From Litoreibacter arenae DSM 19593 (lineage in GTDB: Bacteria; Pseudomonadota; Alphaproteobacteria; Rhodobacterales; Rhodobacteraceae), in the NCBI RefSeq assembly GCF_000442275.2, contig NZ_KE557312.1, positions 248,001 to 312,000 of the forward strand: a stretch of DNA of 64,000 bases, given 5' to 3'. The translations under genes and the position numbers were made by a program. Shown here piece by piece: positions 48,468 to 63,797 of the stretch. Within the stretch, counting starts at the first letter, position 1; the number at the start of each line of letters is the position of its first letter. The notes beneath the pieces are model-generated. The model did not search any database. It saw only the letters and a program-made list of their open reading frames with translations, and was not told the DNA's origin.

Positions 48468-49418
48468 TTGAAACTCACGACACTGATGAAGACCGCCGCG
48501 ATTGCGACCATGATCGCGATCCCGGGTGCCGCACTTGCACAATGGGCGCCAAGTGGCCCGATCACATTGCAAATTGGATTTGGCGCTGGTGGGTCCACTG
48601 ATACGCTAGGTCGCGCGATTGCTGCGGCAGTAGAGGAAAATACAGGTTGGGACGTGGTCGTCGAGAACAAGCCCGGTGGCGGTGGCGTCGCGATGCTGTC
48701 CACTTTGGTCAATGCCGAAGCAGATGGCTCGAAAATTGGCATGGGGGTCACAGTCGCAACGATCATGAACCTCGCGATGCGGGGCGACAAACTGCCTTTC
48801 AAAATTGATAGTTTTGACCATCTGGCCACGGTTGTTCTGGCGCCCGTGTCAATCATCGCCCGCGCTGACGCTCCTTATGACACGTTTGCAGAATTCGTTG
48901 CATTCAGCAAAGAGAACGGCGGCTCGCTGATGGGGTTTGATGGCGGACCGCAGCGCCTGATTATGCAATCTATCAACAACACAACCGGCAGTCAGGTTGA
49001 GCTTGTGTCAAACCAAAGCGGTGCTGAAATCATCAAAGGCCTGCTTGGTGGACAACTGGATGCCGGATTTAGCGCAGGCGAGCATATCCAGTATCTCGAG
49101 TCTGGTGATCTGAAAATGTTGGGGGTCGCGACGCAGTCGCGCCATCCGTATTCACCAGACACCGAAACCCTGGTCGAGCAGGGGTATCCTTACTCTGTTG
49201 AGCCATATTTCTATCTGGCAGCTCCGGCTGGTTTGGACCCGGAGGCCAAGGATGCGCTTGCTACAGCGATTGACGAGGCCATCAAGTCCGATGCCTTGGA
49301 TGAATTGATCGAAAACGTCATGCAAACCAAAGCGAGCAATCTTGGCCCTGAAGGGACCGAAGCCAAATTGAACAGTGGCTTGGCTGATGCATTCGCTCTT
49401 ATTGAGGCAGCCAAGTAA
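48468..49418 (+). CDS. tctC: Tripartite tricarboxylate transporter substrate-binding protein (TctC/Bug)
   Basis: 316 aa from a TTG start with GGAGG eight bases upstream. A signal peptide (KLTTLMKTAAIATMIAIPGAALA) gives a periplasmic protein. The Bug fold is shown by ITLQIGFGAGGSTDTLGRAIA, VVVENKPGGGGV and MQSINNTTGSQVELVSNQSGAE, the usual ligand-loop regions. It captures a carboxylate solute for TctAB. First gene of tctC-tctB-tctA-sulfatase. The ligand cannot be read from sequence; Bug proteins bind diverse mono- to tricarboxylates and aromatic acids. Confidence 0.9.
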   Translation: MKLTTLMKTAAIATMIAIPGAALAQWAPSGPITLQIGFGAGGSTDTLGRAIAAAVEENTGWDVVVENKPGGGGVAMLSTLVNAEADGSKIGMGVTVATIMNLAMRGDKLPFKIDSFDHLATVVLAPVSIIARADAPYDTFAEFVAFSKENGGSLMGFDGGPQRLIMQSINNTTGSQVELVSNQSGAEIIKGLLGGQLDAGFSAGEHIQYLESGDLKMLGVATQSRHPYSPDTETLVEQGYPYSVEPYFYLAAPAGLDPEAKDALATAIDEAIKSDALDELIENVMQTKASNLGPEGTEAKLNSGLADAFALIEAAK

Positions 49419-49477
49419 ATGAAGCGTACTATGGCCGGGCCTTGGGGCTCGGTCATATGTTGTAGATCGGACGCCAC

Positions 49478-49897
49478 ATGACAGCAGAGCGCATCTATAC
49501 GGCAATTCTCGTTTTTCTCGGTCTCGGCTTCCTGTTCATTGCGTTGCCTCAACAAGTAGAGAGCGTTGGCTACGGGCGCATTGTTCCGGCAACCGTCCCA
49601 ACGATTGCCCTGTGGGTCATCATCATCGCCGGCATCGTGCAGTTCTTTACGAGCAAGGAATGCATAGAACTTCATCTCGCAGATAGTTTCCGCGTCATCG
49701 CTTTTGTTGCAATTCTTGTTGTGGCGGTTTGGTTGATAGAGAAGTTCGGCTTTGAATACTTCGCGCCTGTTTTTGCCTTGTCGATCATGCTCTTCATGGG
49801 CGAACGCCGTTGGTACTGGCTCTTGTTCGCCGCATTCGTGATGCCCTTGGGCATTTGGTTCTTGGTCGAGAACGTACTTAACCGCGTCCTGCCCTAG
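49478..49897 (+). CDS. tctB: Tripartite tricarboxylate transporter small membrane subunit (TctB)
   Basis: 139 aa with four hydrophobic segments: YTAILVFLGLGFLFIALP, TIALWVIIIAGIVQFF, VIAFVAILVVAVWLI and WYWLLFAAFVMPLGIWFLV. Length and topology match TctB, and position between tctC and tctA settles the call. It ends 11 bp before tctA. Confidence 0.87.
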   Translation: MTAERIYTAILVFLGLGFLFIALPQQVESVGYGRIVPATVPTIALWVIIIAGIVQFFTSKECIELHLADSFRVIAFVAILVVAVWLIEKFGFEYFAPVFALSIMLFMGERRWYWLLFAAFVMPLGIWFLVENVLNRVLP

Positions 49898-49908
49898 AAG
49901 GACTATCA

Positions 49909-51411
49909 ATGGACTTTGCAACGATTATAGCGGGACTGACAGACGCGCTGACACCTCTCAATCTGCTGTTCGTTCTTGCAGGTGTTTTTGTGGGTCAGTT
50001 TGTTGGCGCCATGCCGGGGATCGGGCCGGTGATGGCAATGGCCATTGCTATCCCGTTTACCTTCGCGCTCAATCCATTGCCTGCGATAGGATTTTTGGTT
50101 GGTGTGAACAAGGGCGGCTTAATTGGTGGGGCCATACCTGCGATTTTGCTTAACACACCCGGAACGCCTGATGCCGCAGCAACTGCGATTGATGGTTATC
50201 CCCTGACGAAACAGGGCAAACCGCTCAAAGCCATGAAAATGGCTTTGTATGCGTCTGTGACCGGAGACACCTTCAGCGATATCGTTCTGATTACGGTTGC
50301 TGCTCCTCTGGCAATCTTGGCGTTGCAATTGGGGCCCGTTGAAATTTTCGCGCTTATGGTCTTTGCGTTCTCGCTAATTTCCGGCCTCATCGGGGACTCG
50401 ATAAGCAGAGGTGCGATTGCAACCGCGCTTGGCCTGTTGGCGGCAACCGTCGGTCTTGATCCAGAACATTCGACACCAAGGTTCTTGTTCGGAATGTTCC
50501 AGCTTTACGACGGGTTTCCAATTGCCTCTGTCGCAATCGGATCCCTCGCTGTTTCAGAAATAACGCTGCGCGTCGCGCGCATGCGCGGCAAAATGCGGCC
50601 TGCTGTCGTAATCCCGAAGAATCAAACCAAGGACCAAAAGTCGGTCAGCTTTGCGGAATATTGGGCCTGTCGGTTTGTTCTTTTGAGAGGGTCGCTCATT
50701 GGCACATTCATCGGTGCTGTTCCGGGCATGGGATCAACCGCTGCGGCTTTTATGAGTTACGCCTCAACCAAACAAACCGCAAAGGATCCATCTTCCTTTG
50801 GCAAAGGTGACCTGCGCGGCATTGCGGCTACGGAATCTGCCAACAGTTCGGTGGCTGGGGCGGACTTTATACCTCTGCTTACGTTGGGGCTTCCCGGTAG
50901 TGCGTCCGCTGCCATTATGATCGGCGCCTTCCTTATCCAGGGCATTCAGCCAGGACCCTTGCTGTTCGAACAACAAGGGCAACTGGTTTACGGCATATTC
51001 GGTGCAATGATTATGGCCAACGCCTGCAATCTGCTTTGTGGGCTCTTTGGCCTTCGGCTTTGGAGCAAGTTGATTACTGCGCCGGAGTCTGTGGTGTTTT
51101 CCATCGCGCTCGTCCTCTGTGTCACGGGCGTCTATCTGGCAACGGGAGGGGCGTTTGGCGTTTTCGTCATGATCCTGTTCGCCGTGATCGGTGTCATCAT
51201 GACGGTGCTGCGATATCCGCTTGTTGTCTTTATCATCGCATTCTTCCTCGGACCCAGATTTGAACTGTCTCTGGGGCAAACCGCAACCATCCTGCGCGGA
51301 GATGTCTGGAACCTTGCCAACCATCCGGTTGCTGTCGTTCTATTTGCGATGTCGATTTTCTCGATCTACTGGCTGGGTATCAAAAAGAGGCGGCGGAAAG
51401 CGTCAGATTAG
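49909..51411 (+). CDS. tctA: Tripartite tricarboxylate transporter large permease (TctA)
   Basis: 500 aa, 11-12 membrane spans. TctA signatures are VFVGQFVGAMPGIGPVMAMAIAIPFTF near residue 25, PAILLNTPGTPDAAATAIDGYPLTKQG, GTFIGAVPGMGSTAAAFMSYA and the duplicated glycine-proline loop in LTLGLPGSASAAIMIGAFLIQGIQPGP. It forms the secondary transporter with TctB and TctC. The sulfatase gene follows 30 bp later. Confidence 0.93.
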   Translation: MDFATIIAGLTDALTPLNLLFVLAGVFVGQFVGAMPGIGPVMAMAIAIPFTFALNPLPAIGFLVGVNKGGLIGGAIPAILLNTPGTPDAAATAIDGYPLTKQGKPLKAMKMALYASVTGDTFSDIVLITVAAPLAILALQLGPVEIFALMVFAFSLISGLIGDSISRGAIATALGLLAATVGLDPEHSTPRFLFGMFQLYDGFPIASVAIGSLAVSEITLRVARMRGKMRPAVVIPKNQTKDQKSVSFAEYWACRFVLLRGSLIGTFIGAVPGMGSTAAAFMSYASTKQTAKDPSSFGKGDLRGIAATESANSSVAGADFIPLLTLGLPGSASAAIMIGAFLIQGIQPGPLLFEQQGQLVYGIFGAMIMANACNLLCGLFGLRLWSKLITAPESVVFSIALVLCVTGVYLATGGAFGVFVMILFAVIGVIMTVLRYPLVVFIIAFFLGPRFELSLGQTATILRGDVWNLANHPVAVVLFAMSIFSIYWLGIKKRRRKASD

Positions 51412-51441
51412 CCTCTGACTGCCAGAATTTCAGGAGCTGAA

Positions 51442-53055
51442 ATGCCCAAGAAAATACTCTTCATCATGTGCGATCAACTGCGGTTTGATTATTTGGGGTG
51501 TACGGGCCACCCAAGCATCAAAACGCCGAACATCGACGCATTGGCGGCGCGCGGTGTCCGGTTCGACAGGACTTATGTGCAATCCCCCATATGTGGCCCC
51601 AGCCGGATGAGTTTTTACACCGGCAGGTATGTGCGCAGCCACGGGTCCACATGGAACAGCTATCCGTTACGGGTAGGGGAGATGACCCTCGGAGACCACC
51701 TCAGGCCACTGGGTGTGCGCACTGTCCTCTGCGGCAAGACCCATATGCGCGCGGACCTTGAGGGCATGGAGCGTCTGGGCATCGACATGTCCAGCGACAT
51801 CGGCGCATTGGTTGCTGAATGCGGGTTTGAGGTCTGGGATCGCAGTGACGGGGTCGTGCCGGACGGGGCGGCCGGGAACCCGTCCAAATACAAAGACCAT
51901 CTCCGCGCCCGAGGCTACGGGGGCGAAAACCCTTGGCATTCGGCGGCGAATTCGGGGAAGTCCGATGACGGCGAGATCTTGTCAGGTTGGCTTTTGAAGC
52001 ATGCAGCCGAGCCTGCGGCAATTGCAGAGGAAGACTCCGAGACGCCCTATACCACGACCCGCGCAATCGAGTTTATGGAGCAGGCCAAGGACGACAGCTG
52101 GTGCCTGCATCTGAGCTACATCAAGCCGCATTGGCCCTACATTGTGCCCGCGCCCTACCACGATATGTACAGTGAAAGGGATATCATTTCAGTCAAACGG
52201 TCCGATGCTGAATTGAAAGACCCGCATCCCTTGATGGCAGGCTATTATGGATATCGCTATTCGCACGCGTTCCGTCGTGATGATGTGCGCAATGCCGTCA
52301 TTCCTGCTTACATGGGTCTGATTACCCAGATTGACGACCAGATCGGGCGTCTGATGACCTACCTCAAGCAGAGCGGCCAACTGGACGAGACGCTGATCGT
52401 ATTTACCTCCGATCACGGCGATTACCTTGGCGATCACTGGATGGGGGAGAAGGAGTTGTTCCACGATCAATCCGCCCGCATTCCGATGATCATCGTCGAC
52501 CCAAGCGAAGGCGCGGATGCAACGCGGGGGCAGGTCATCACGGATCTGACCGAGGCAATTGATCTTGCCCCGACATTTGTGGAGTTCTTTGGTGGCAAAG
52601 TGCCGGATCATATTCTTGAAGGTCGGTCGCTGCTTCCTTCACTTCACGGCAATGCCGGCCCCGCCCGCGAATACGTCATCTCGGAATATGACTATTCATC
52701 CCGTCCGCATCTTCGCCATCTCAGCCCCGATGCCAAGTCCTGCCTCTTGACGATGGTCTTTGACGGGCGATGGAAGATGATCTGGGTCGAGGGTCATCGG
52801 CCCATGCTCTACGATCTGGAGACAGACCCCGATGAATTCAATGATCTTGGTGCAGATGAAAATCACAGCGCCGAGATCATGCGATTGTCAAACGCGATGT
52901 TCGATTGGGCGCGCAGACAGCACAACCGTGTCACGTTGTCGGACGAGAAGATCGACAACGACATGTGCCACGATGATGCGGTTGAAGGTGTTTACCTTGG
53001 GTTCTGGGATGAAGATGAACTCGCCGCCTGGAAAGCGGACAATTCACCCGATTGA
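51442..53055 (+). CDS. Sulfatase-superfamily enzyme (arylsulfatase / phosphonate monoester hydrolase-like)
   Basis: 537 aa, no signal peptide, so cytoplasmic. The formylglycine site is CGPSRMSFYTGR (the Cys near residue 50), preceded by IMCDQLRFDYLG with metal-binding Asp and followed later by TSDHGDYLGDHWMGEK. Stretches such as KPHWPYIVPAPYHDMY, GLITQIDDQIGRLMTYL and EAIDLAPTFVEFFGGKVP resemble the phosphonate monoester hydrolase/arylsulfatase branch rather than BetC. It probably frees an imported ester. Sulfate, phosphodiester or phosphonate as leaving group is undecided. No maturation enzyme gene is in the window. Confidence 0.85.
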   Translation: MPKKILFIMCDQLRFDYLGCTGHPSIKTPNIDALAARGVRFDRTYVQSPICGPSRMSFYTGRYVRSHGSTWNSYPLRVGEMTLGDHLRPLGVRTVLCGKTHMRADLEGMERLGIDMSSDIGALVAECGFEVWDRSDGVVPDGAAGNPSKYKDHLRARGYGGENPWHSAANSGKSDDGEILSGWLLKHAAEPAAIAEEDSETPYTTTRAIEFMEQAKDDSWCLHLSYIKPHWPYIVPAPYHDMYSERDIISVKRSDAELKDPHPLMAGYYGYRYSHAFRRDDVRNAVIPAYMGLITQIDDQIGRLMTYLKQSGQLDETLIVFTSDHGDYLGDHWMGEKELFHDQSARIPMIIVDPSEGADATRGQVITDLTEAIDLAPTFVEFFGGKVPDHILEGRSLLPSLHGNAGPAREYVISEYDYSSRPHLRHLSPDAKSCLLTMVFDGRWKMIWVEGHRPMLYDLETDPDEFNDLGADENHSAEIMRLSNAMFDWARRQHNRVTLSDEKIDNDMCHDDAVEGVYLGFWDEDELAAWKADNSPD

Positions 53056-53061
53056 ACGCAC

Positions 53062-53092
53062 GCATCCAACGCGCGCCACGCGCGTTGGATGC
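53062..53092. terminator. 14-bp perfect hairpin between convergent operons
   Basis: GCATCCAACGCGCG (53062-53075) pairs perfectly with 53079-53092 over a 3-nt CCA loop. It sits between the ends of the tct-sulfatase operon and kynU. There is no U-run, so it is a bidirectional stop or mRNA-end stabiliser rather than a textbook terminator. Confidence 0.6.
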
Positions 53093-53105
53093 ATGAGTGC
53101 AGTTA

Positions 53106-54362
53106 TTAGGTGACTGCGCGGCGTTCTTTGAACTCCGGACGGTCCCATTCGCCTGTTTCCATCACCTCGCGGATATGCGCCACCGAGTCCCAGATATCGA
53201 CGTAGCGCACATATGGTGCGGCAAAGCCAAAGCGCAGAATGTCCGGCGCGCGGAAATCACCTACCACGCCGCGCTCGATAAGGGCTTGAACGATGGCATA
53301 GCCGTTCTCATGGGTTAGCGACACCTGAGAACCACGTGTCTCGGCGTCCTTGGGGCTGGCAAGCTCAAACCCCATGCCGCCAAGTTCTTGCTCAACGAGG
53401 GCGATGAACAAATCCCCTAGCGCCATGTTCTTTTGACGCAAGACGGTCATGTCCACGTCTTTGAACGCCTCCATCGCTGTTTCCAACGCCAGCGTCGCCA
53501 ATTGGGACGCCGTGCCGGTCAGCATCTGGTCGATGGTGGGGTGTGGTTTGTACTCTTGGGTGAAGCTGAAAGGCTCGGCATGGCCATGCCAGCCGCGCAA
53601 GGGTTGGTTCATATCGTCAAAATGGCGTCGCGCCACAAAGACGAAGGCGGGCGCGCCGGGGCCGCCGTTCAAGTATTTGTATCCACAACCAACAGCAAAA
53701 TCGGCGTTACATTCGTTCAACTGGACTGGCAACGCACCTGCTGAATGGGCCAGATCCCAGATAACCAGACCGCCAAGATCCTGGGCGCGTTTGGTGATGC
53801 CCGGCATGTCATAGATACGGCCCGACTTGTAATGCACATGTGTCAATTGAACGAGCGCGAGGTCTTCACCCGCCGCATCAATCGCGCTTTCCACCTCTTC
53901 GGGCATGACACACCGCAACTCGCAGCCCATCATCTCGGCCACTTCGGTGTTGATATACACGTCCGTCGGGAAGTTCCCGATCTCGGAGACGATGATCTTG
54001 CGATCCTTGCGCATCCGCAGCGCGCCGACCAGCAGCTTGAACAAGTTGACCGAGATGGAGTCGCACACGATGACCTCATCGTCATCGGCACCAATAATGC
54101 GCGCAATCGCAGCGCCAGCGCGTTGCGGGGCAGGATACCAATCGGCATCGTTCCAACTGCGGATCAAGCCTTGACCCCATTCCTTCTTCACCGCCTTCTC
54201 CAACCGCTCCATCACGCCGAGCGGCAAAGCACCAAGTGAGTTGCCATCAAGATAAATATCATTAGCTGGCAACTCAAAACGGTCGCGAAGGTGGGCAATG
54301 GGGTCAGCGCTGTCCATTTCGATTGTGTCGGCGCGGGTGATTTTTGCTGAATGAGCATTCAT
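53106..54362 (-). CDS. kynU: Kynureninase
   Basis: 418 aa PLP-dependent hydrolase that cleaves kynurenine or 3-hydroxykynurenine to (3-hydroxy)anthranilate and alanine. Diagnostic blocks are IYLDGNSLGALPLGV, RSWNDADWYPAP, SEIGNFPTDVYINTEV, IWDLAHSAGALPVQLNECNADFAVGC and GCGYKYLNGGPGAPAFVFV, which holds the PLP-binding Lys. The start MNAHSAKITRAD (54362) with AGGAA upstream is preferred. It is downstream of the aldehyde dehydrogenase on the same strand, 35 bp apart. Confidence 0.93.
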   Translation of the reverse strand: MNAHSAKITRADTIEMDSADPIAHLRDRFELPANDIYLDGNSLGALPLGVMERLEKAVKKEWGQGLIRSWNDADWYPAPQRAGAAIARIIGADDDEVIVCDSISVNLFKLLVGALRMRKDRKIIVSEIGNFPTDVYINTEVAEMMGCELRCVMPEEVESAIDAAGEDLALVQLTHVHYKSGRIYDMPGITKRAQDLGGLVIWDLAHSAGALPVQLNECNADFAVGCGYKYLNGGPGAPAFVFVARRHFDDMNQPLRGWHGHAEPFSFTQEYKPHPTIDQMLTGTASQLATLALETAMEAFKDVDMTVLRQKNMALGDLFIALVEQELGGMGFELASPKDAETRGSQVSLTHENGYAIVQALIERGVVGDFRAPDILRFGFAAPYVRYVDIWDSVAHIREVMETGEWDRPEFKERRAVT

Positions 54363-54397
54363 TGGTCTATTCCTGATGTTCGTTATCTTTGTTGAGG

Positions 54398-55828
54398 TCA
54401 CACAATCTTCGATGAATGCCACACGTTCTTGACGATCATGTAATTGTCCAGCCCTTCCGAGCCACCCTCACGACCATAGCCGCTGGACTTTACCCCGCCA
54501 AAGGGCGTCTCGGGCATCGAGGCTTCAAGAGTGTTGATGGACAGGTTTCCGACCTCGACCTCGTCAATCAGGCGGTCGATATAATCCGCGCGGTTGGTGA
54601 AAGCATAGCCGGCAAGCCCGTAGGGCACGGAATTGGCACGTGTGATTGCATCATCAAGGGACGTCACAGGGTTGATAACAGCAACCGGCCCAAAAGGTTC
54701 TTCCTGCATGATACGCGCATCATCCGGGACATTGACCAGCACTGTTGGCTCGAAAAAATAGCCGGAGTTGCCAAGGCGTGCGCCACCTGTTGCCACCGTT
54801 GCGCCTTTGGCGCGGGCATCTTCAACCAGCGCCGTCAAGGCCGGGACGCGTCGATCATTGGCGAGCGGTCCCATTTCGACGCCCGCCTCCATGCCGTTGC
54901 CGACCACGGTCTGGGCGGCACGCGCAACGAAGGTGTCCGTGAACTGCTCAAAGATCCCTTCATTGACAAAGAAGCGTGTGGGCGAGGTGCAAACCTGACC
55001 CGCATTACGCATCTTGCGGATCGCCCCGGAGGTGGCAGCTGCTGTGACGTCCGTATCTTCACAAACGATGACCGGCGCGTGCCCACCAAGTTCCATCAGC
55101 ACAGAGGTCATGTTCTCGGAGGCAAGCGTCGTCAGATGACGGCCAACGGGGGTCGAGCCGGTGAACGCCACAAGGCGCACGGGGTCTTGCGGGATCAGGT
55201 GGCTGGAAATTTCGGCAGGATCACCAAACACAAGGTTCAGCACACCGGCAGGCAGCCCCGCATCTTCAAAGGCGCGCGCAATATGGACGGCGCCAGCAGG
55301 CGTCTCTTCCGCCGCTTTGAGGATGATCGAGCAGCCAGAGGCCAAGGCCCCCGCAATCTTGCGCGCAGGCTGGCTCATCGGGAAATTCCATGGCGAAAAG
55401 GCCGCGACCACGCCGATCGGTTGATGGTGGACGGAAAATTTGTGACCGCGTGCCGCAGGAATGATCCGGCCATAGGTGCGCATCGCTTCGCCCGCATCCC
55501 ATTCAAAGAATTCGGCGCCGCGGATCACTTCCAGTCGAGCCTGCGCAAGCGGCTTTCCGTGCTCCAAAGTGATCGACTGCGCAATCTCCTCCTGGCGTTC
55601 ACGCATCAGCGCCGCAGCTCTCAGGATTGTATCACCACGCTCGCGGGGGGATGTTGCACTCCAGATCCGAAACCCCTTTTCGGCGGCGTCCAATGCATCA
55701 TCAAGATCGCTTTTTTCGGCGTAAGGCAACCTTCCAAGCTCTTGTTCCGTCGCCGGGTTAACCACGGGCATATCGCGACCTGTGGTTCTCCATTCACCTG
55801 CTATAAACAATTTCAGCTCTGGATACAT
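54398..55828 (-). CDS. NAD(P)-dependent aldehyde dehydrogenase
   Basis: 476 aa ALDH. Landmarks are FSPWNFPMSQPARKIAGALASGC, FTGSTPVGRHL, the catalytic Glu in LMELGGHAPVIV, the catalytic Cys in RNAGQVCTSPTRFFV and EEPFGPVAVI. Overall closest in pattern to succinate/2-oxoglutarate-semialdehyde dehydrogenases. Next to kynU and the nbaC-type dioxygenase it could oxidise 2-aminomuconate semialdehyde, but that is inferred from context. Start 55828 (MYPELKLFIAGEW) has GGAG upstream. Confidence 0.85.
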   Translation of the reverse strand: MYPELKLFIAGEWRTTGRDMPVVNPATEQELGRLPYAEKSDLDDALDAAEKGFRIWSATSPRERGDTILRAAALMRERQEEIAQSITLEHGKPLAQARLEVIRGAEFFEWDAGEAMRTYGRIIPAARGHKFSVHHQPIGVVAAFSPWNFPMSQPARKIAGALASGCSIILKAAEETPAGAVHIARAFEDAGLPAGVLNLVFGDPAEISSHLIPQDPVRLVAFTGSTPVGRHLTTLASENMTSVLMELGGHAPVIVCEDTDVTAAATSGAIRKMRNAGQVCTSPTRFFVNEGIFEQFTDTFVARAAQTVVGNGMEAGVEMGPLANDRRVPALTALVEDARAKGATVATGGARLGNSGYFFEPTVLVNVPDDARIMQEEPFGPVAVINPVTSLDDAITRANSVPYGLAGYAFTNRADYIDRLIDEVEVGNLSINTLEASMPETPFGGVKSSGYGREGGSEGLDNYMIVKNVWHSSKIV

Positions 55829-55903
55829 TGATCTCGCACTCCTTGATTTTTCGCGTCCAGTTCGGTCAATGTTGGAGGCCAATTCAAGTGAATTGAGCGG
55901 ATA

Positions 55904-55928
55904 CTGGTATCAGTTTCAAGAATACCAG
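55904..55928. promoter_or_regulatory. LysR-type dyad upstream of the ALDH-kynU operon
   Basis: CTGGTAT (55904-55910) and ATACCAG (55922-55928) form a perfect 7-bp inverted repeat with an 11-bp spacer, the T-N11-A architecture of LTTR sites. It lies about 75 bp before the ALDH start, just after the lysR stop. Confidence 0.6.
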
Positions 55929-55931
55929 AGC

Positions 55932-56876
55932 TCATCTTTCTTTTGCGGCAACGTGCAGCGCGTCTTTGAAAGCCTGTCCGGCAGGTGAAAGACTATTGTC
56001 GCTGCGGTAGGTCAGGCCGATCGGACTTTGGCCAAACGGAACGTCCCAATTCAGGGCGGTGAGGTATCCGTTATCGACGTCTTGCTGGACGACTTCAGCA
56101 GGCATCAAGCCGATCCAGTCGCTGGATTGCAGCATTGCCCTGTTGGCGAGATAGGAGACAGACTCGATCGCGAACGGGGGCGTATACTGACCTTGGCTGA
56201 TAAAGAACTGGTCAATCTGGCGGCGCATGGTGGTCTCAACCGGGGGCAATATCCATCCAAACGGCTTGATTTGATTGAATGGTAGCGACTTGACCTGAGC
56301 CAGCGGGTGGTCATTGCCAACAACCGCTGTGACACGGTCCTCGAACAGTTTTTCCTGTTTCAATCTATCGCGATGCCGATGCGACGGAAGTCGCCCAACG
56401 ACCAGATCAATTTCCCCCGATAGCAGCGCAGGCATCAGAACTTCATTGGTCCCTTCGTTAATCTTGATTGCAACCTTGGGCCGGTCCCGCAGCACTTTCG
56501 CAATTGCGGCCGGTAGCAGTTTTGTCGACGCCGCAAGTAACGTCCCCACGACAACCCGTCCGCTATTGCCTTCGTTCAAGTCATCCAGTTCCTGTGCCGC
56601 GTTAGACACTTGTGCAAAGATCAACTTGCCATGACGGATCAGGGTTTCACCAAAGACGGTGGGCACAACCCCGCGATTGGTGCGGGTGAAGAGCTTCACT
56701 TCGAAGTCGATTTCAAGGTCCTGGATCATCTTTGTCGCGGCGGGTTGCGATATGCTCAATTCACGCGCGGCGTTCTGGATGTTGCCATGATTGCCGACGG
56801 CAACCAGCAGCCGGAGCTGGCGCAATTTCAGCCGCGTCAAGGCGCGATCCACTATGCGGGAATGCTTTGCGATCAT
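55932..56876 (-). CDS. LysR-family regulator of the island
   Basis: 314 aa LTTR. The winged HTH is at ALTRLKLRQLRLLVAVGNHGNIQNAARELSIS, then QPAATKMIQDLEIDF; the effector domain runs from about residue 95 (SGRVVVGTLLAASTKLLPAAI). The HTH resembles the GbpR/PcaQ-like group (RQLRLLVAV...ISQPAATKMI). It is divergent from the DHDPS-like operon and upstream of ALDH-kynU. Matching dyads lie on both sides, so it probably controls both and itself. Confidence 0.88.
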   Translation of the reverse strand: MIAKHSRIVDRALTRLKLRQLRLLVAVGNHGNIQNAARELSISQPAATKMIQDLEIDFEVKLFTRTNRGVVPTVFGETLIRHGKLIFAQVSNAAQELDDLNEGNSGRVVVGTLLAASTKLLPAAIAKVLRDRPKVAIKINEGTNEVLMPALLSGEIDLVVGRLPSHRHRDRLKQEKLFEDRVTAVVGNDHPLAQVKSLPFNQIKPFGWILPPVETTMRRQIDQFFISQGQYTPPFAIESVSYLANRAMLQSSDWIGLMPAEVVQQDVDNGYLTALNWDVPFGQSPIGLTYRSDNSLSPAGQAFKDALHVAAKER

Positions 56877-56978
56877 TGACAGGCCACCTCTACAAATCTG
56901 CCCGGCCTTTCGTTGAAACCAGTTTTCATATCATTATCCCTTGGTTGGTGCCGACTTAACCGGAATTGATAGCCTCTT

Positions 56979-56999
56979 GATATAGCTAATAATGATATC
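56979..56999. promoter_or_regulatory. LysR-type dyad in the lysR / lyase divergent gap
   Basis: GATAT (56979-56983) and ATATC (56995-56999) are inverted repeats exactly 11 bp apart, 84 bp before the DHDPS-like ATG and about 100 bp before the lysR ATG. Same spacing and related arms as the dyads at 55904 and 48246. Confidence 0.6.
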
Positions 57000-57083
57000 T
57001 AGTTCTGGTGTTTCGTGTTGGCAATGCTGTTTCAATGCGGCCTTCTGAACTTGAACACTGGTTTTCCAACACAGGTCGGACCG

Positions 57084-58620
<1,537 letters not shown>

Positions 58621-58640
58621 ATAATCAATAACGAAGTTGA

Positions 58641-59630
<990 letters not shown>

Positions 59631-59649
59631 TGCGTCTGGTTTTGTGTGG

Positions 59650-59676
59650 AAAGGCGCGAGGCAATCTCGCGCCTTT
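59650..59676 (+). promoter_or_regulatory. Intercistronic hairpin between dctP and dctQ
   Basis: AAAGGCGCGAG (59650-59660) pairs perfectly with CTCGCGCCTTT (59666-59676) around GCAAT, with no long T-run after it. Such stem-loops behind a binding-protein gene protect its mRNA or reduce read-through, giving more DctP than membrane subunits. Confidence 0.7.
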
Positions 59677-59693
59677 CTGATAGGGAACTGACA

Positions 59694-60227
59694 ATGCTCT
59701 ACCGTATTTCAGCAACATGGGCGCGCGTGGAACTTTGGGCGGCAGCGGTTCTGGCTGTCTGCGTCACGCTATTGGTTCTTCTAAATGTTGTGACACGAAA
59801 TACAGGTAACGCCCTGTTCTGGGTCGATGAACTCGCAATTTATGCAATGGCCTGGATGACATTTCTCGGTGCGTCCGCCGCGCTGCATTACCGCAATTCC
59901 GTGGTGATTACATTGTTGCCCGACGCAGTTTCTCTGCGCACCAAGGCCGTGATCGTCAAAATCGTGGACATCATCGTCTTCGGTTTTGCATTGGCTATGC
60001 TGTGGTTCTGCTGGCGGTGGTTCATGCCCTTAGAGCTTGCGCGGGCAGGGTTTGACACCAAGATATTTCAGGGCAACACGTTTAACTTTATCTACGCCGA
60101 GCCAACGTCCACGCTTGGCATTCCAAAGTACATTTTCTGGAGCGTCATGTGGCTGTTCGCCTTGGGGGCGACGCTGCATTCCACAATGCACCTGATGACC
60201 GCGCCTTCACAGATTGAAAAATCATGA
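59694..60227 (+). CDS. TRAP transporter small permease (DctQ)
   Basis: 177 aa with four spans (WARVELWAAAVLAVCVTLLVLLNVVTRN; LFWVDELAIYAMAWMTFLGASAAL; VDIIVFGFALAMLWFCWRWF; YIFWSVMWLFALGATLHSTMHL). The WVDELAIYAMAWMTFLG motif is the DctQ signature. Start 59694 (MLYRISATWARVELW) is preferred over an ATG that lies inside the hairpin region. It overlaps dctM by four bases. Confidence 0.9.
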   Translation: MLYRISATWARVELWAAAVLAVCVTLLVLLNVVTRNTGNALFWVDELAIYAMAWMTFLGASAALHYRNSVVITLLPDAVSLRTKAVIVKIVDIIVFGFALAMLWFCWRWFMPLELARAGFDTKIFQGNTFNFIYAEPTSTLGIPKYIFWSVMWLFALGATLHSTMHLMTAPSQIEKS

Positions 60228-61483
60228 GCCCTGTCGTCTTCCTGGTGGCGCTGCTGCTATCCGTACCGGTCGCTATTGTCCTCGTCATCACTGCGGCTTG
60301 GTACATTTGGGAAAGCGGAAACACTGTTCTGTACGACAGCTTCGCCCAGAAAATGTTCGGTGGGCTGGAAAACTACGGCCTTCTCGCAGTTCCTTTGTTC
60401 ATGCTCACCGGAGAATTGATGAACGAAGGCGGGATGACCAAACGCCTGATCAATATGGCGCGTGTTTTCGTCGGCGGATTTCGGGGCGGGTTGGCGTATA
60501 TCAACCTCCTCGCCAATATGTTTATGGCGGCAATCATCGGGTCGGCAACCGCCCAGATCGCCGTGATGTCGCGCGCAATGGTTCCTGCAATGGAAGCAGA
60601 AGGGTACAACCGCGGATTTGCGGCGGCCACCACTGCGGCGGGCGGTTTGTTGGCGCCTGTTATTCCGCCGTCGATGATGTTTGTGATCTTCGGGGTTCTG
60701 GCGCAGGTCCCGATTGGAGAGATGTTCATCGCAGGAATTATTCCGGGTTTATTGCTGACAGGTGCTTTTGCATTGGTCATCACACTTGTCGGCTTGCAAC
60801 AGCAGTTTCCAAAGGACGTGTGGATGTCGCGCAAAGAGGCCGGCCGAGCGCTGCTCGAGGCAATGCCCGCCCTTCTTATCCCACTGGCGATCATCGGTGG
60901 CATCTTGTTTGGCATCGCGACCCCGACAGAATCCGCCGCCATCGCATCCTTGATCGCTTTCCTTGTGGGGTGGCTCTTCTATCGAGAGTTGAAGCCGCGC
61001 CAATTGGCGAAGATGTTCAAACGCACAGCGGTAAACGCGTCGATGATTATTTTCATGATCTCGGCCGCAAGCGTTTTTGGCTGGGTCATCATCTACGGGG
61101 AGCTGCCACAGAAACTTGCAGGGTTCATTACATCAATCACGTCTGATCCGTTTGTGTTCTTCCTGATCGTCAATCTTGCTTTGCTGTTGGTCGGAATGGT
61201 GATCGACGGCATCGCCGCAATAATTCTCATCACCCCGATTTTGTTGCCCATTGCAACGGGCAATTACGACATAAGCCCGCACCAGTTTGGTGTCGTCGTG
61301 TGTTTGAACCTTGTCCTTGGACTTCTGACACCGCCAGTCGGGATCGGGCTCTATATTGCGTCGTCGATGAGCGACACATCAGCGGGTGCCATTCTCAGGG
61401 CCCTATGGCCATTTCTCCTCGCTGTCGCTGTGGTTCTGGTTCTGCTGAGCTATTTCGCCAGTCTGTCGACGTTTCTGATCTAG
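60224..61483 (+). CDS. TRAP transporter large permease (DctM)
   Basis: 419 aa, about 12 spans, sodium-coupled secondary transporter subunit. DctM features are YGLLAVPLFMLTGELMNEGGMTKRLI, SATAQIAVMSRAMVPAMEAEGYNRGFAAATTAAGGLLAPVIPPSMMFVIFG, IATPTESAAIASLIA and NLVLGLLTPPVGIGLYIASS. It is the last gene of the lyase-nbaC-dctPQM operon. Confidence 0.94.
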   Translation: MSPVVFLVALLLSVPVAIVLVITAAWYIWESGNTVLYDSFAQKMFGGLENYGLLAVPLFMLTGELMNEGGMTKRLINMARVFVGGFRGGLAYINLLANMFMAAIIGSATAQIAVMSRAMVPAMEAEGYNRGFAAATTAAGGLLAPVIPPSMMFVIFGVLAQVPIGEMFIAGIIPGLLLTGAFALVITLVGLQQQFPKDVWMSRKEAGRALLEAMPALLIPLAIIGGILFGIATPTESAAIASLIAFLVGWLFYRELKPRQLAKMFKRTAVNASMIIFMISAASVFGWVIIYGELPQKLAGFITSITSDPFVFFLIVNLALLLVGMVIDGIAAIILITPILLPIATGNYDISPHQFGVVVCLNLVLGLLTPPVGIGLYIASSMSDTSAGAILRALWPFLLAVAVVLVLLSYFASLSTFLI

Positions 61484-62110: not shown

Positions 62111-62246
62111 TAGGACGGGCCTCACCCCGCCACCCCACGCGCGCCCCGTAGGGTGGGCGGTCCCATCCACCTTGCCACCCATGCCGCGTCAAGCCATGGT
62201 GGCCGGAATGGTAGAGATTTCCGAAATAACCGACCGCAAGAGCCTT
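62111..62246. repeat. Right boundary repeat: REP-like hairpins plus the start of the Ala-rich gene
   Basis: This segment follows the same order as the left repeat at 47646-47766: GTAGGACGGGCCTCACCCCG, then CCGTAGGGTGGGCGGTCCCA, then the ATG and first codons of the 529-aa gene. The two copies are clearly alignable but diverged, with small indels between the hairpins and the ATG. A third REP copy (GTAGGGCGGGGTTCACCCCG) lies at 63811 behind the gene. Confidence 0.7.
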
Positions 62247-63797
62247 GAGGCGTGGCTGCTGGAGCAGGACGATCCCAAAGCCGTATCAGCGATAATCGCC
62301 CATCGCGCCGCGATGCGGGTTTTGCCGATTGCGTGGCAGTGGTTTTCAAAGGTCACACACAAATCTGATATGGCAACTTTGCGTGTTTTAAGAGCACCTT
62401 TGACTTCTGAGGTTGCTTGCTTCGCAACCATTTTTGTGGCCGCTCCCATCGCCGCTGCTCGTGCGGCCGACGTCGCGGTCACTTACGCTGGCACCGCCGC
62501 CGATACCGCCGCCGCGAGAGACGATACGGTCGCACGCGCCGATGCTGCCGCCGCTCGTGCTGCCGCGTCCGCTATCTCTCACGCTGCTAAAGTCTCCGGT
62601 GCCGCCGATGCCGCCGCTGAACCCACCTTAGTTGCCATCGCGCGCGTCGCGGCAGCTGAATACTCGACGTCCATTAACCTCAATATCTGGCCCCACATCC
62701 GCCGCGACTGCAGCGCATATCTGGCGGGGGAGGATTTCACCTCCGCCCATCTCTGGCCCGGCGACGGCAACCCACTCGCGCAGGTTTGGGAGGCCCTGAA
62801 GAAAGACCTCTCCAAACCCGCAGGCTCCGAGGCCACAGCCCGCGGCGAAACAGGTCTCGACTGGTCCTTCTGGATCGACTGGTACGACCGCGCCCTCACC
62901 GGCACCGAGGACCGCTGGGACATGCTCACCGAAATCGCCCTGCTCGACAGCAAAGTCTGGGAAGGTGAAGCGTCGGTCCTGATGGACGAGATCAACAAGA
63001 TTTGGAGAATGCACTCTGCGGCGGCAGCGCCTAATGGCGAGGAGCTATCAGTCAACTCTGCGAACGGGCGATACCGCGTCACGCCTGCTGTCGCCGACAC
63101 TGCTGAACTCTACGCGGAAACGCGCGGCAAGCTGTCGGCGGTCCTCAGCCTTCCCGCATTTCAGGAACCGTTGGAAAACCAATACACGGCGTTACGCGAA
63201 GAACTGGACATGTTGCGTAACGCAAACGCAACACATGACGATGCTCCGCGCATGTTGCATTCAACCTGCGTCCGCGCTCGGGCACGCCTCCGCGTCAAAT
63301 TTCAAAACGAAGTCTGTCCCACTCCCGAGGAAGACGCCAATTCCCTCGACCTTCTTGGGTCGGTAGAGGAGGTGATCTCAGACCTGGTCAGCCAGAACGA
63401 GAAGGTCAAACAAGCCGTCATCGCCAAGGCGAAGGTCTCGTTTGAACTGCATGGGGACCGCGCCGAAATCATCGCAGAAGCAGATATGCAGTTGGCTGAG
63501 ATATCCGAGGGCCTTTTGGCCACACAAATGCCCGAACTGGCAGAGGTCATTCGAGACCCGTCGGCTTCCGACGATGAAAAGGCCGAGGCGCTTTACGTCA
63601 GTGCGGCGCGTCTTTTGCGCGTCGGTGTTATCGAGGCGTACAAAGGCAGCAAGTCGGTCGTTGGCGAAATTGAATGGTGGTCGGAGCGCGGGGTGAAACT
63701 GACGGTCAATGCTGGAAAGATCGTCGGAGCATCTGCTGCCGTCACCTCTCCACTCTGGCTTGAGAACGCACTCAAAGTCATCTTGACCCTACTCTGA
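62208..63797 (+). CDS. Ala-rich hypothetical protein upstream of murB
   Basis: 529 aa from ATG 62208 (starts 4, 9 or 12 codons upstream are possible). Residues ~70-155 are an Ala-rich, likely helical, imperfect repeat (AARAADVAVTYAGTAADTAAARDDTVARADAAAARAA). A Trp-rich block (GLDWSFWIDWYDRALTGTEDRWDMLTEIALLD) comes next, then a long charged helical region (DLLGSVEEVISDLVSQNEKVKQAVIAKAKVSFEL) and a hydrophobic C-terminus (WLENALKVILTLL). No family with known function is recognised. A truncated paralogue start is at 47729. Confidence 0.65.
   Translation: MVEISEITDRKSLEAWLLEQDDPKAVSAIIAHRAAMRVLPIAWQWFSKVTHKSDMATLRVLRAPLTSEVACFATIFVAAPIAAARAADVAVTYAGTAADTAAARDDTVARADAAAARAAASAISHAAKVSGAADAAAEPTLVAIARVAAAEYSTSINLNIWPHIRRDCSAYLAGEDFTSAHLWPGDGNPLAQVWEALKKDLSKPAGSEATARGETGLDWSFWIDWYDRALTGTEDRWDMLTEIALLDSKVWEGEASVLMDEINKIWRMHSAAAAPNGEELSVNSANGRYRVTPAVADTAELYAETRGKLSAVLSLPAFQEPLENQYTALREELDMLRNANATHDDAPRMLHSTCVRARARLRVKFQNEVCPTPEEDANSLDLLGSVEEVISDLVSQNEKVKQAVIAKAKVSFELHGDRAEIIAEADMQLAEISEGLLATQMPELAEVIRDPSASDDEKAEALYVSAARLLRVGVIEAYKGSKSVVGEIEWWSERGVKLTVNAGKIVGASAAVTSPLWLENALKVILTLL

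Follow-up and report, generated by a model that had tools for sequence, protein, structure and literature searches.

Introduction

3-Hydroxyanthranilate (3-HAA) is the compound at which tryptophan breakdown, NAD synthesis and nitrobenzoate degradation branch. To our knowledge, the route through 2-amino-3-carboxymuconate semialdehyde decarboxylase (ACMSD) is the only bacterial lower pathway known for it. The closest described system is the nba/onb lower pathway of 2-nitrobenzoate and kynurenine, in which a dioxygenase opens 3-HAA to 2-amino-3-carboxymuconate semialdehyde (ACMS) and ACMSD, 2-hydroxymuconic semialdehyde dehydrogenase, RidA, FAH-family enzymes and an aldolase follow; the steps of OnbC, OnbD, OnbE and OnbF in the 2-nitrobenzoate route are set out in a section of PMC5817917. 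Here we describe a block of genes (48468-61483) in a window of 64,000 nucleotides from Litoreibacter arenae DSM 19593 (G000:C9:248001-312000; "the window" means this whole stretch), whose genome of 3.68 Mb is 99.96% complete. In this block the same dioxygenase, NbaC, stands beside an aldehyde dehydrogenase (ALDH) and a lyase of the dihydrodipicolinate synthase (DHDPS) fold. On balance, we read the block, above all 53106-61483, as a 3-HAA catabolic module with a lower pathway unlike the ACMSD route.

Two other groups of described enzymes serve as comparisons. The members of the DHDPS/N-acetylneuraminate lyase (NAL) superfamily have in common a fold and a Schiff-base lysine, and among DHDPS-family proteins the hydratase-aldolases NahE and PhdJ carry out a hydration followed by a retro-aldol cleavage through the Schiff base. 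The third reference point is the pair of arylsulfatases SpAS1 and SpAS2 of Ruegeria (Silicibacter) pomeroyi, which the sulfatase of the window matches over its full length (4upi/4upl; 4UPI is the arylsulfatase SpAS1 according to an extract of PMC5870055).

Conservation of the Module Across Genomes

As far as sequence comparison tells, the core of the block is a conserved module of NbaC, ALDH, the DHDPS-fold lyase and a mostly adjacent aspartate dehydrogenase (AspDH), not the sulfatase. With the DHDPS-like protein as the query (E<=1e-40), orthologues of 57-87% identity were found in 17 other genomes among 289 genomes of the class, so that 18 genomes including that of the window carry the gene (DHDPS+). 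The gene nbaC was present in 26 of the 289 genomes, namely 17 of the 18 DHDPS+ genomes (the exception was G224) vs 9 of the 271 DHDPS- genomes (Fisher test, 4.6e-20, uncorrected for kinship). In five draft DHDPS+ genomes (G007, G065, G099, G185 and G279) it lay on a contig separate from that of the DHDPS-like gene.

An alignment of 15 sequences was used for a wider genome scan (E<=1e-3), and the best 80 of 547 lyase relatives, from Roseobacters, other Alphaproteobacteria, Woeseiaceae and other Gammaproteobacteria, were kept as module loci. Genes were counted in these and a further 17 loci (97 in all) by tblastn with identity thresholds, because spurious antisense open reading frames (ORFs) in GC-rich loci hid nbaC in some of them. 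A set of 104 loci was used for the check on the classical pathway, and alignment A2 comprised 66 of the 80 loci and the window. In the sets of 97 and 104 loci, as in the 81 rows of the lyase alignment, at least one sequence is represented twice (by the G252 copy and by L108). The 80 loci contained nbaC in 69 cases, ALDH in 68, AspDH in 66, a LysR regulator in 53, DctM in 32, a gene like kynurenine monooxygenase (KMO) in 17, tryptophan dioxygenase (TDO) in 12, a sulfatase in five and a molybdenum hydroxylase (Mo-hydroxylase) in three. The corresponding numbers for the further 17 loci were 11 for nbaC, two for ALDH, five for AspDH and 13 for the Mo-hydroxylase. Several loci without nbaC or AspDH were short contigs.

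In the usual roseobacter order, the genes for ALDH, LysR and AspDH read leftward and those for DHDPS, nbaC and dctPQM rightward. An annotated plasmid copy of Ruegeria follows this order, and a Pukyongiella plasmid copy does so with an inserted DMT transporter gene. The Shinella locus has an ABC transporter and kynU, the Paroceanicella locus has the Mo-hydroxylase, and a Phaeobacter plasmid copy (L120) has TctABC, TRAP and kynU, with the TctABC genes following kynU. The block recurs in many genera, which indicates that the neighbourhood is not due to chance. The DHDPS-like gene was also seen on many plasmids of Phaeobacter and its relatives; in L120 the block adjoins repABC and the plasmid was typed as conjugative.

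Distribution of the ACMSD Route

To search for ACMSD, the Variovorax protein adjoining nbaC (L123) was used as the query. None of the 18 DHDPS+ genomes, that of the window included, gave an ACMSD match (E<=1e-40), and neither did any of the 104 module loci (identity threshold). Homologues of at least 50% identity were present in G001, G122, G175 and G184, each adjoining nbaC, which are four of the nine nbaC+ DHDPS- genomes, and also in G226, where nbaC did not show up. Weaker matches (29-35%) occurred in eight further genomes, none of them DHDPS+. Within the nbaC+ genomes, Fisher's test of ACMSD against DHDPS gave 0.008, again uncorrected for kinship.

Variovorax queries detected no 2-hydroxymuconic semialdehyde dehydrogenase, neither of two FAH-family enzymes, no aldolase and no acetaldehyde dehydrogenase in the 104 loci, where RidA occurred once (L029) and the edge of L127 truncates an annotated FAH-family gene. 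Three classical loci, those of Variovorax, Cupriavidus pauculus and Caballeronia, carry ACMSD, RidA, FAH, aldolase and acetaldehyde dehydrogenase, and neither DHDPS nor AspDH was found in them. Instead of the nba/onb genes, the module has ALDH or the Mo-hydroxylase, the DHDPS-fold lyase and AspDH. Locus L122 of C. metallidurans holds nbaC and kynU with neither the classical nor the new gene set. The 4-hydroxy-2-oxovalerate aldolase (TIGR03217, E<=1e-30) was not found in 16 of the 18 DHDPS+ genomes, that of the window among them, and was found in four of the nine nbaC+ DHDPS- genomes; its absence is an imperfect test, since it occurs in only two of the four genomes that have a true ACMSD. We also considered that canonical nba genes might lie elsewhere in the window genome, but a search limited to ACMSD and the aldolase found neither. 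The presence of a variant 3-HAA module that excludes the ACMSD route is therefore probable, with good support from sequence.

The Proposed Aldehyde-Oxidising Step

ALDH (at least 50% identity) was present in 70 of the 97 loci and the large subunit of the Mo-hydroxylase in 16; 11 loci, several of them short contigs, had neither. Because the two never occurred in the same locus, the simplest reading is that the Mo-hydroxylase substitutes for ALDH, one aldehyde-oxidising enzyme for another. The best NCBIfam match of the Mo-protein was the glyceraldehyde dehydrogenase alpha subunit, below the cut-off (562 vs 790 bits), and quinoline 2-oxidoreductase was among its closest solved relatives. The latter kinship would allow the enzyme to hydroxylate a heteroaromatic ring instead, although its replacement of ALDH speaks otherwise.

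Active Site of the Lyase

The lyase was compared with E. coli DapA and NanA, taken from the K-12 record. In all 81 family rows, T44, Y107 and Y133 of DapA, which we take to be its catalytic Thr-Tyr-Tyr triad, are replaced by Lys, Phe and Trp. The position of R138, presumably also of functional importance, is deleted, and K161, presumably the Schiff-base lysine, is kept. The corresponding residues of the window protein, numbered from 57084, are Lys59, Phe124 and Trp150, with Lys177 as the Schiff-base lysine. Besides lacking the DapA triad, the protein scored 89.8 bits against the DapA model TIGR00674, whose cut-off is 206.15 bits. An AlphaFold model (mean pLDDT 89.8, pTM 0.88) was matched by Foldseek to DHDPS/NAL structures at TMq 0.77-0.82 and 18-26% identity among the matches listed, and no NahE or PhdJ chain was named among these. 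The lyase is a protein of the DHDPS/NAL-type fold that keeps the Schiff-base lysine and has a new active-site triad, which fits a substrate other than that of DHDPS. We infer that it would cleave 2-amino-3-carboxymuconate, by chemistry similar to that of NahE and PhdJ on a substrate that would be aliphatic and carry several carboxylates. A paralogue of 33% identity in G102 (L020), with Asn, Val and Phe at the triad positions and the lysine kept, forms another uncharacterised branch.

Aspartate Dehydrogenase

The AspDHs linked to the module match curated aspartate dehydrogenase models and the L-aspartate dehydrogenase 2dc1. A tree of 95 AspDH rows was built, with a root for drawing only, a bootstrap that had not fully settled and some long branches. 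Its input comprised 72 linked sequences, namely those of 65 of the 71 AspDH-bearing module loci that passed a length and stop filter and seven plasmid copies. Among the 30 loci L155-L184, five duplicates of linked copies were dropped, L157 was replaced by L187 (the copy of the window genome), L176 and L180 failed the filter and 22 were used. As a result, 67 linked rows fell into one group (99/92) together with the single AspDH of the window genome, the linked AspDHs of Shinella, Sinorhizobium, Paroceanicella and Ensifer formed a second group (99/100), and L026 took a third place. The repeated recruitment of AspDH beside the lyase, from at least two AspDH lineages, suggests aspartate, or the corresponding imine, as a product. 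AspDH at 46% identity or more was found in 14 of the 18 DHDPS+ vs two of 10 DHDPS- genomes.

Unlike most module loci, the block of the window has no AspDH among its genes. A remnant between lysR and the lyase gene was considered, and the 207 bases there are too few for a gene. The only AspDH of the window genome lies on contig C7 (G000:C7:147885-148634; L187 8852-9634), upstream of tctCBA and an AtuA/DUF1446-like ORF and with a GntR-like regulator (names by eye). That this enzyme serves the 3-HAA module is a guess from the tree; its locus may be another catabolic operon, in which iminosuccinate is produced or consumed.

Two further observations concern the surroundings of the module. An aspartate ammonia-lyase is encoded about 9 kb downstream in Pukyongiella, which is suggestive only. 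In four gamma loci (L053, which also has an NrtR-like regulator, L058, L074 and L086), NadA is encoded near AspDH, nbaC, kynU, KMO-like or TDO genes, and kynurenine breakdown may be tied to NAD synthesis there.

Proposed Pathway

In the pathway that we propose, NbaC would open the ring of 3-HAA to ACMS (C7), and ALDH, or the Mo-hydroxylase in other lineages, would oxidise ACMS to 2-amino-3-carboxymuconate, whose imine form is a 3-substituted iminosuccinate. This oxidation would prevent the spontaneous closure of ACMS to quinolinate. The lyase would then bind C2 through its lysine as a Schiff base, hydrate C4 and cleave C3-C4 in a retro-aldol reaction, giving malonate semialdehyde together with oxaloacetate or iminosuccinate. 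AspDH would reductively convert the latter to L-aspartate, so that one NADH is gained by ALDH and one is spent, with no loss of CO2 ahead of the C-C cleavage. Malonate semialdehyde would be converted to acetyl-CoA by methylmalonate semialdehyde dehydrogenase (MMSDH), an enzyme able to take this substrate. Fifteen of the 18 DHDPS+ genomes, that of the window included, carry MMSDH; as the enzyme is common, this serves as a consistency check only. In the window genome, the AspDH on the other contig may serve the pathway. KynU, the sulfatase and both transporters (TRAP and Tct) would act as feeders, through which 3-HAA or a kynurenine-type compound, possibly O-sulfated, would be imported and led to 3-HAA. 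The order of ALDH and lyase, as well as their products, comes from chemical reasoning, and the exact reactions are plausible in outline with the balance tipping slightly against their being right in every step.

Several findings weigh against this pathway. The search for MMSDH found no gene in G007, G060 or G127. No AspDH turned up in 14 of the 80 and 12 of the further 17 loci, some of which are short, nor, at E<=1e-12, in three of the 18 DHDPS+ genomes (G099, G127 and G224; 74-93% complete). The presence of AspDH per genome is unspecific (15 of 18 DHDPS+ vs 8 of 10 DHDPS- genomes searched), so the weight of this argument rests on adjacency. The AspDH of the window genome sits in a different Tct operon and may serve that operon, nadA near AspDH in the four gamma loci is a context of NAD synthesis, and the classical aldolase (TIGR03217) is present in the DHDPS+ genomes G194 and G287. 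We are doubtful of the fullest version, in which this genus would combine a carbon-conserving route (a cut into C4 and C3 by a lyase with a new active site, the ring nitrogen being saved as L-aspartate by AspDH) with a feed of O-sulfated kynurenine-type compounds.

Gene Content of the Block

The block begins on the murC side with tctC, tctB, tctA and the sulfatase gene on the plus strand, followed by kynU, ALDH and LysR genes on the minus strand and the DHDPS-family gene, nbaC and dctPQM on the plus strand:

48468..49418, plus strand: TctC, solute-binding protein of a tripartite tricarboxylate transporter (Pfam PF03401, 104.9 bits)
49478..49897, plus strand: TctB, small permease (PF07331, 42.1 bits)
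49909..51411, plus strand: TctA, large permease (PF01970, 437.4 bits)
51442..53055, plus strand: class I sulfatase of the SpAS1/SpAS2 arylsulfatase type, like phosphonate monoester hydrolase (PMH) (PF00884; PDB 4upi 661.7 bits, 4upl 648.5 bits)
53106..54422, minus strand: kynureninase KynU (TIGR01814, 304 bits vs cut-off 246.4; 1qz9, 407 bits)
54398..55882, minus strand: ALDH of the succinate semialdehyde/alpha-ketoglutaric semialdehyde dehydrogenase type (PF00171, 516.8 bits; 5x5t, 507.9 bits)
55932..56876, minus strand: LysR regulator, PcaQ-like, below the PcaQ cut-off (TIGR02424, 227.3 vs 303.8 bits)
57084..58037, plus strand: DHDPS-fold lyase, marker of the module (ORF from 57015, conserved start 57084; PF00701, 118.1 bits)
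58078..58620, plus strand: 3-hydroxyanthranilate 3,4-dioxygenase NbaC (TIGR03037, 269.2 vs 145.95 bits; 1yfu, 257 bits)
58656..59630, plus strand: DctP, TRAP solute-binding protein (PF03480, 175.8 bits)
59646..60227, plus strand: DctQ, TRAP small permease (PF04290, 65.2 bits)
60224..61483, plus strand: DctM, TRAP large permease (PF06808, 353.2 bits)

The listed ORFs of kynU and ALDH are likely overlong at their 5' ends, and their starts are probably 54362 and 55828, respectively. NbaC is also above the cut-off of NF009763 (278.2 vs 220 bits), and in an alignment to 1yfu it retains R46, H50, E56, H94, R98 and E109 as well as the four cysteines C124/127/161/164, which we take to be the residues that bind iron and substrate and the two CxxC pairs; by its sequence it is a normal 3-HAA dioxygenase. 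The block is flanked by murC on one side and by an ORF without a family match on the other; this ORF, after dctM (62172-63797, 541 aa), had no Pfam or NCBIfam match.

All genes named in the initial annotation (TctABC, TRAP, the sulfatase or PMH-like enzyme, kynU, nbaC, ALDH and the DHDPS-family gene) are present, and the LysR regulator can be added to them. Its reading of the block as a system that opens the ring of 3-HAA and includes genes for uptake is likewise supported. That annotation overlooked the replacement of the ACMSD route by ALDH, lyase and AspDH, and it placed the sulfatase at the heart of the pathway, a role that the distribution of the enzyme does not support, as described below. 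It had further taken TDO, formamidase and KMO to be absent. TDO is absent from the block, but the genome encodes one on contig C4 (PF03301, above the cut-off), next to a large ORF resembling valS (by eye), and this part of the earlier argument falls. No KMO was found in the window genome (E<=1e-8), in a search that had no positive control and used a KMO-like query from a gamma locus. This query was named from context only, its matches being Pfam FAD_binding_3 and, far below the cut-off, VioC as the best NCBIfam model. The KynU of the block was the only one found in the genome (E<=1e-8).

Probable Feeder Genes and Entry Compound

Because the upstream genes vary between loci, 3-HAA is probably the common entry compound. 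KynU occurs in some roseobacters, and TDO, KMO-like and KynU genes together in gamma loci; as KynU was present in only 25 of the 80 loci (14 + 11, in two gene clusters), it was rejected as part of the core. In Sinorhizobium mexicanum (L126 4951-6708), genes for DUF4863, an NAD(P)H oxidoreductase and a flavin reductase lie ahead of the module. We take the DUF4863 and flavin reductase genes to encode the mutase and nitroreductase of nitrobenzoate degradation. The locus is a candidate case of a nitrobenzoate upper pathway coupled with the new lower pathway.

The sulfatase of the window has a C-x-P-S-R motif of the formylglycine type at residue 51, and no signal peptide was seen on inspection by eye. 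With its full-length homology to the SpAS enzymes, it is predicted to be an arylsulfatase of this type that hydrolyses sulfate esters. As a core gene it was rejected, since 132 of 244 genomes of the order carry a member of its family (E<=1e-120) and 75 of the 80 module loci have no sulfatase in the stretch covered. It appears to be a lineage-specific addition beside kynU.

A competing explanation is that the sulfatase does define the block, which would then degrade an O-sulfated derivative of kynurenine or 3-HAA. The sulfatase adjoins kynU in five of the 80 module loci, with differing gene order, and all five have nbaC and DHDPS. Outside these, kynU was near three of 29 sulfatase loci of the order (five of the 29 were viewed beyond 1.5 kb), and within 1.5 kb in two of the 29 outside the window (L195 and L212). 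When wider stretches around six sulfatases, including a second copy of the window genome, were viewed, kynU was near three (L222, L223 and L226). The initial annotation would have been refuted had the hydrolase never occurred together with kynU/nbaC; these loci show that it does, in a minority. The gap between kynU and the sulfatase gene is 5-8 bases in L088, L110 and L222 (tblastn). In L226 (2270-9800) the order is TctCBA, sulfatase, a TDO-like protein below the TIGR03036 cut-off, an alpha/beta hydrolase and KynU, and the sulfatase ahead of the TDO-like gene hints at a substrate like sulfated hydroxytryptophan; L223 has a Rieske oxygenase, sulfatase, alpha/beta hydrolase and KynU. Moreover, the DHDPS-like gene occurred in two of 15 sulfatase genomes, G393 and G409, and in each of these the sulfatase is linked to kynU (Fisher, 0.029). 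An O-sulfate on the later 3-hydroxyl, that is, a pre-formed and masked hydroxyl group, would explain why KMO, of which none was found, is dispensable. The link between desulfation and KynU thus looks real in some lineages. Against a block defined by the sulfatase stand the 75 module loci without the gene, the 26 of 29 other sulfatase loci without kynU in the stretch viewed, and G295, in which a third kynU-linked sulfatase occurs without the DHDPS-like gene.

The residues of KynU also bear on this question. We take Trp with Gly-Thr at the preference positions to mark a kynurenine-type enzyme, and His with Asn to mark a preference for 3-hydroxykynurenine. The KynU of the window has Trp and Gly-Thr, as have all nine sulfatase-linked KynUs checked, which counts against the sulfatase-defined block. 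The gamma KynUs have a Gly-His-Phe loop and Ser-Asn in 14 of 14 cases, with His (11), Glu (2) or Gln (1) opposite the Trp. These residues speak against hydroxykynurenine as the substrate in the window genome but do not settle the matter, because the KynU of C. metallidurans, which lies beside nbaC, has the same residues as that of the window and the KynU of Phaeobacter L120 combines His with Gly-Thr. Taken together, a block defined by desulfation seems rather improbable, and an O-sulfated kynurenine-type precursor in this genome is possible though doubtful.

Other Explanations of the Core

The lyase might instead do the work of ACMSD and RidA. A Schiff base at C2 would free ammonia, the beta-carboxylate would leave as CO2, ALDH would form 4-oxalocrotonate, and the usual hydratase and aldolase would be encoded elsewhere. 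Loss of CO2 from a Schiff base is easy, KdgD is a decarboxylating enzyme of the DHDPS family, the ALDH resembles semialdehyde dehydrogenases, and ACMSD and RidA are among the genes missing from the loci. However, the required TIGR03217 aldolase is missing from the nearly complete window genome and from 15 of the 17 other DHDPS+ genomes, in a search that did not extend to HpaI-type replacements. In addition, the 104 loci contain no Variovorax-type FAH or aldolase, and the adjacent AspDH would be left without explanation. We consider this mechanism unlikely.

It is very improbable that NbaC serves NAD supply, with ACMS closing to quinolinate and the neighbours being incidental, in spite of nadA near nbaC, kynU, KMO-like and AspDH genes in the four gamma loci, the NrtR-like regulator in L053 and the NAD-biosynthesis Gene Ontology term in the annotation of AspDH: since quinolinate arises from ACMS without an enzyme (according to a passage of PMC10143591), ALDH, the lyase and the TRAP, Tct or ABC transporters would be left without a role, though ALDH and the lyase are the conserved part, and the importer and the LysR regulator point to catabolism.

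Implications

A literature search in open-licence PubMed Central returned no paper naming this combination of genes among the matches listed, which is not proof of absence; a term search of PMC9007349 found nothing on the module, and the matches listed gave no clear answer as to a marine source of sulfated kynurenine. As far as we found, the 3-HAA pathway proposed here is widespread in bacteria and undescribed. If it is true, a different route for 3-HAA operates in many marine and soil Proteobacteria (547 lyase relatives at E<=1e-3, with the module checked in the best 80), and a well-studied fold would harbour a new lyase chemistry. Possibly hundreds of proteins annotated as "dihydrodipicolinate synthase family" would gain a function, and the module would provide a genetic marker for the turnover of tryptophan and kynurenine in the sea.

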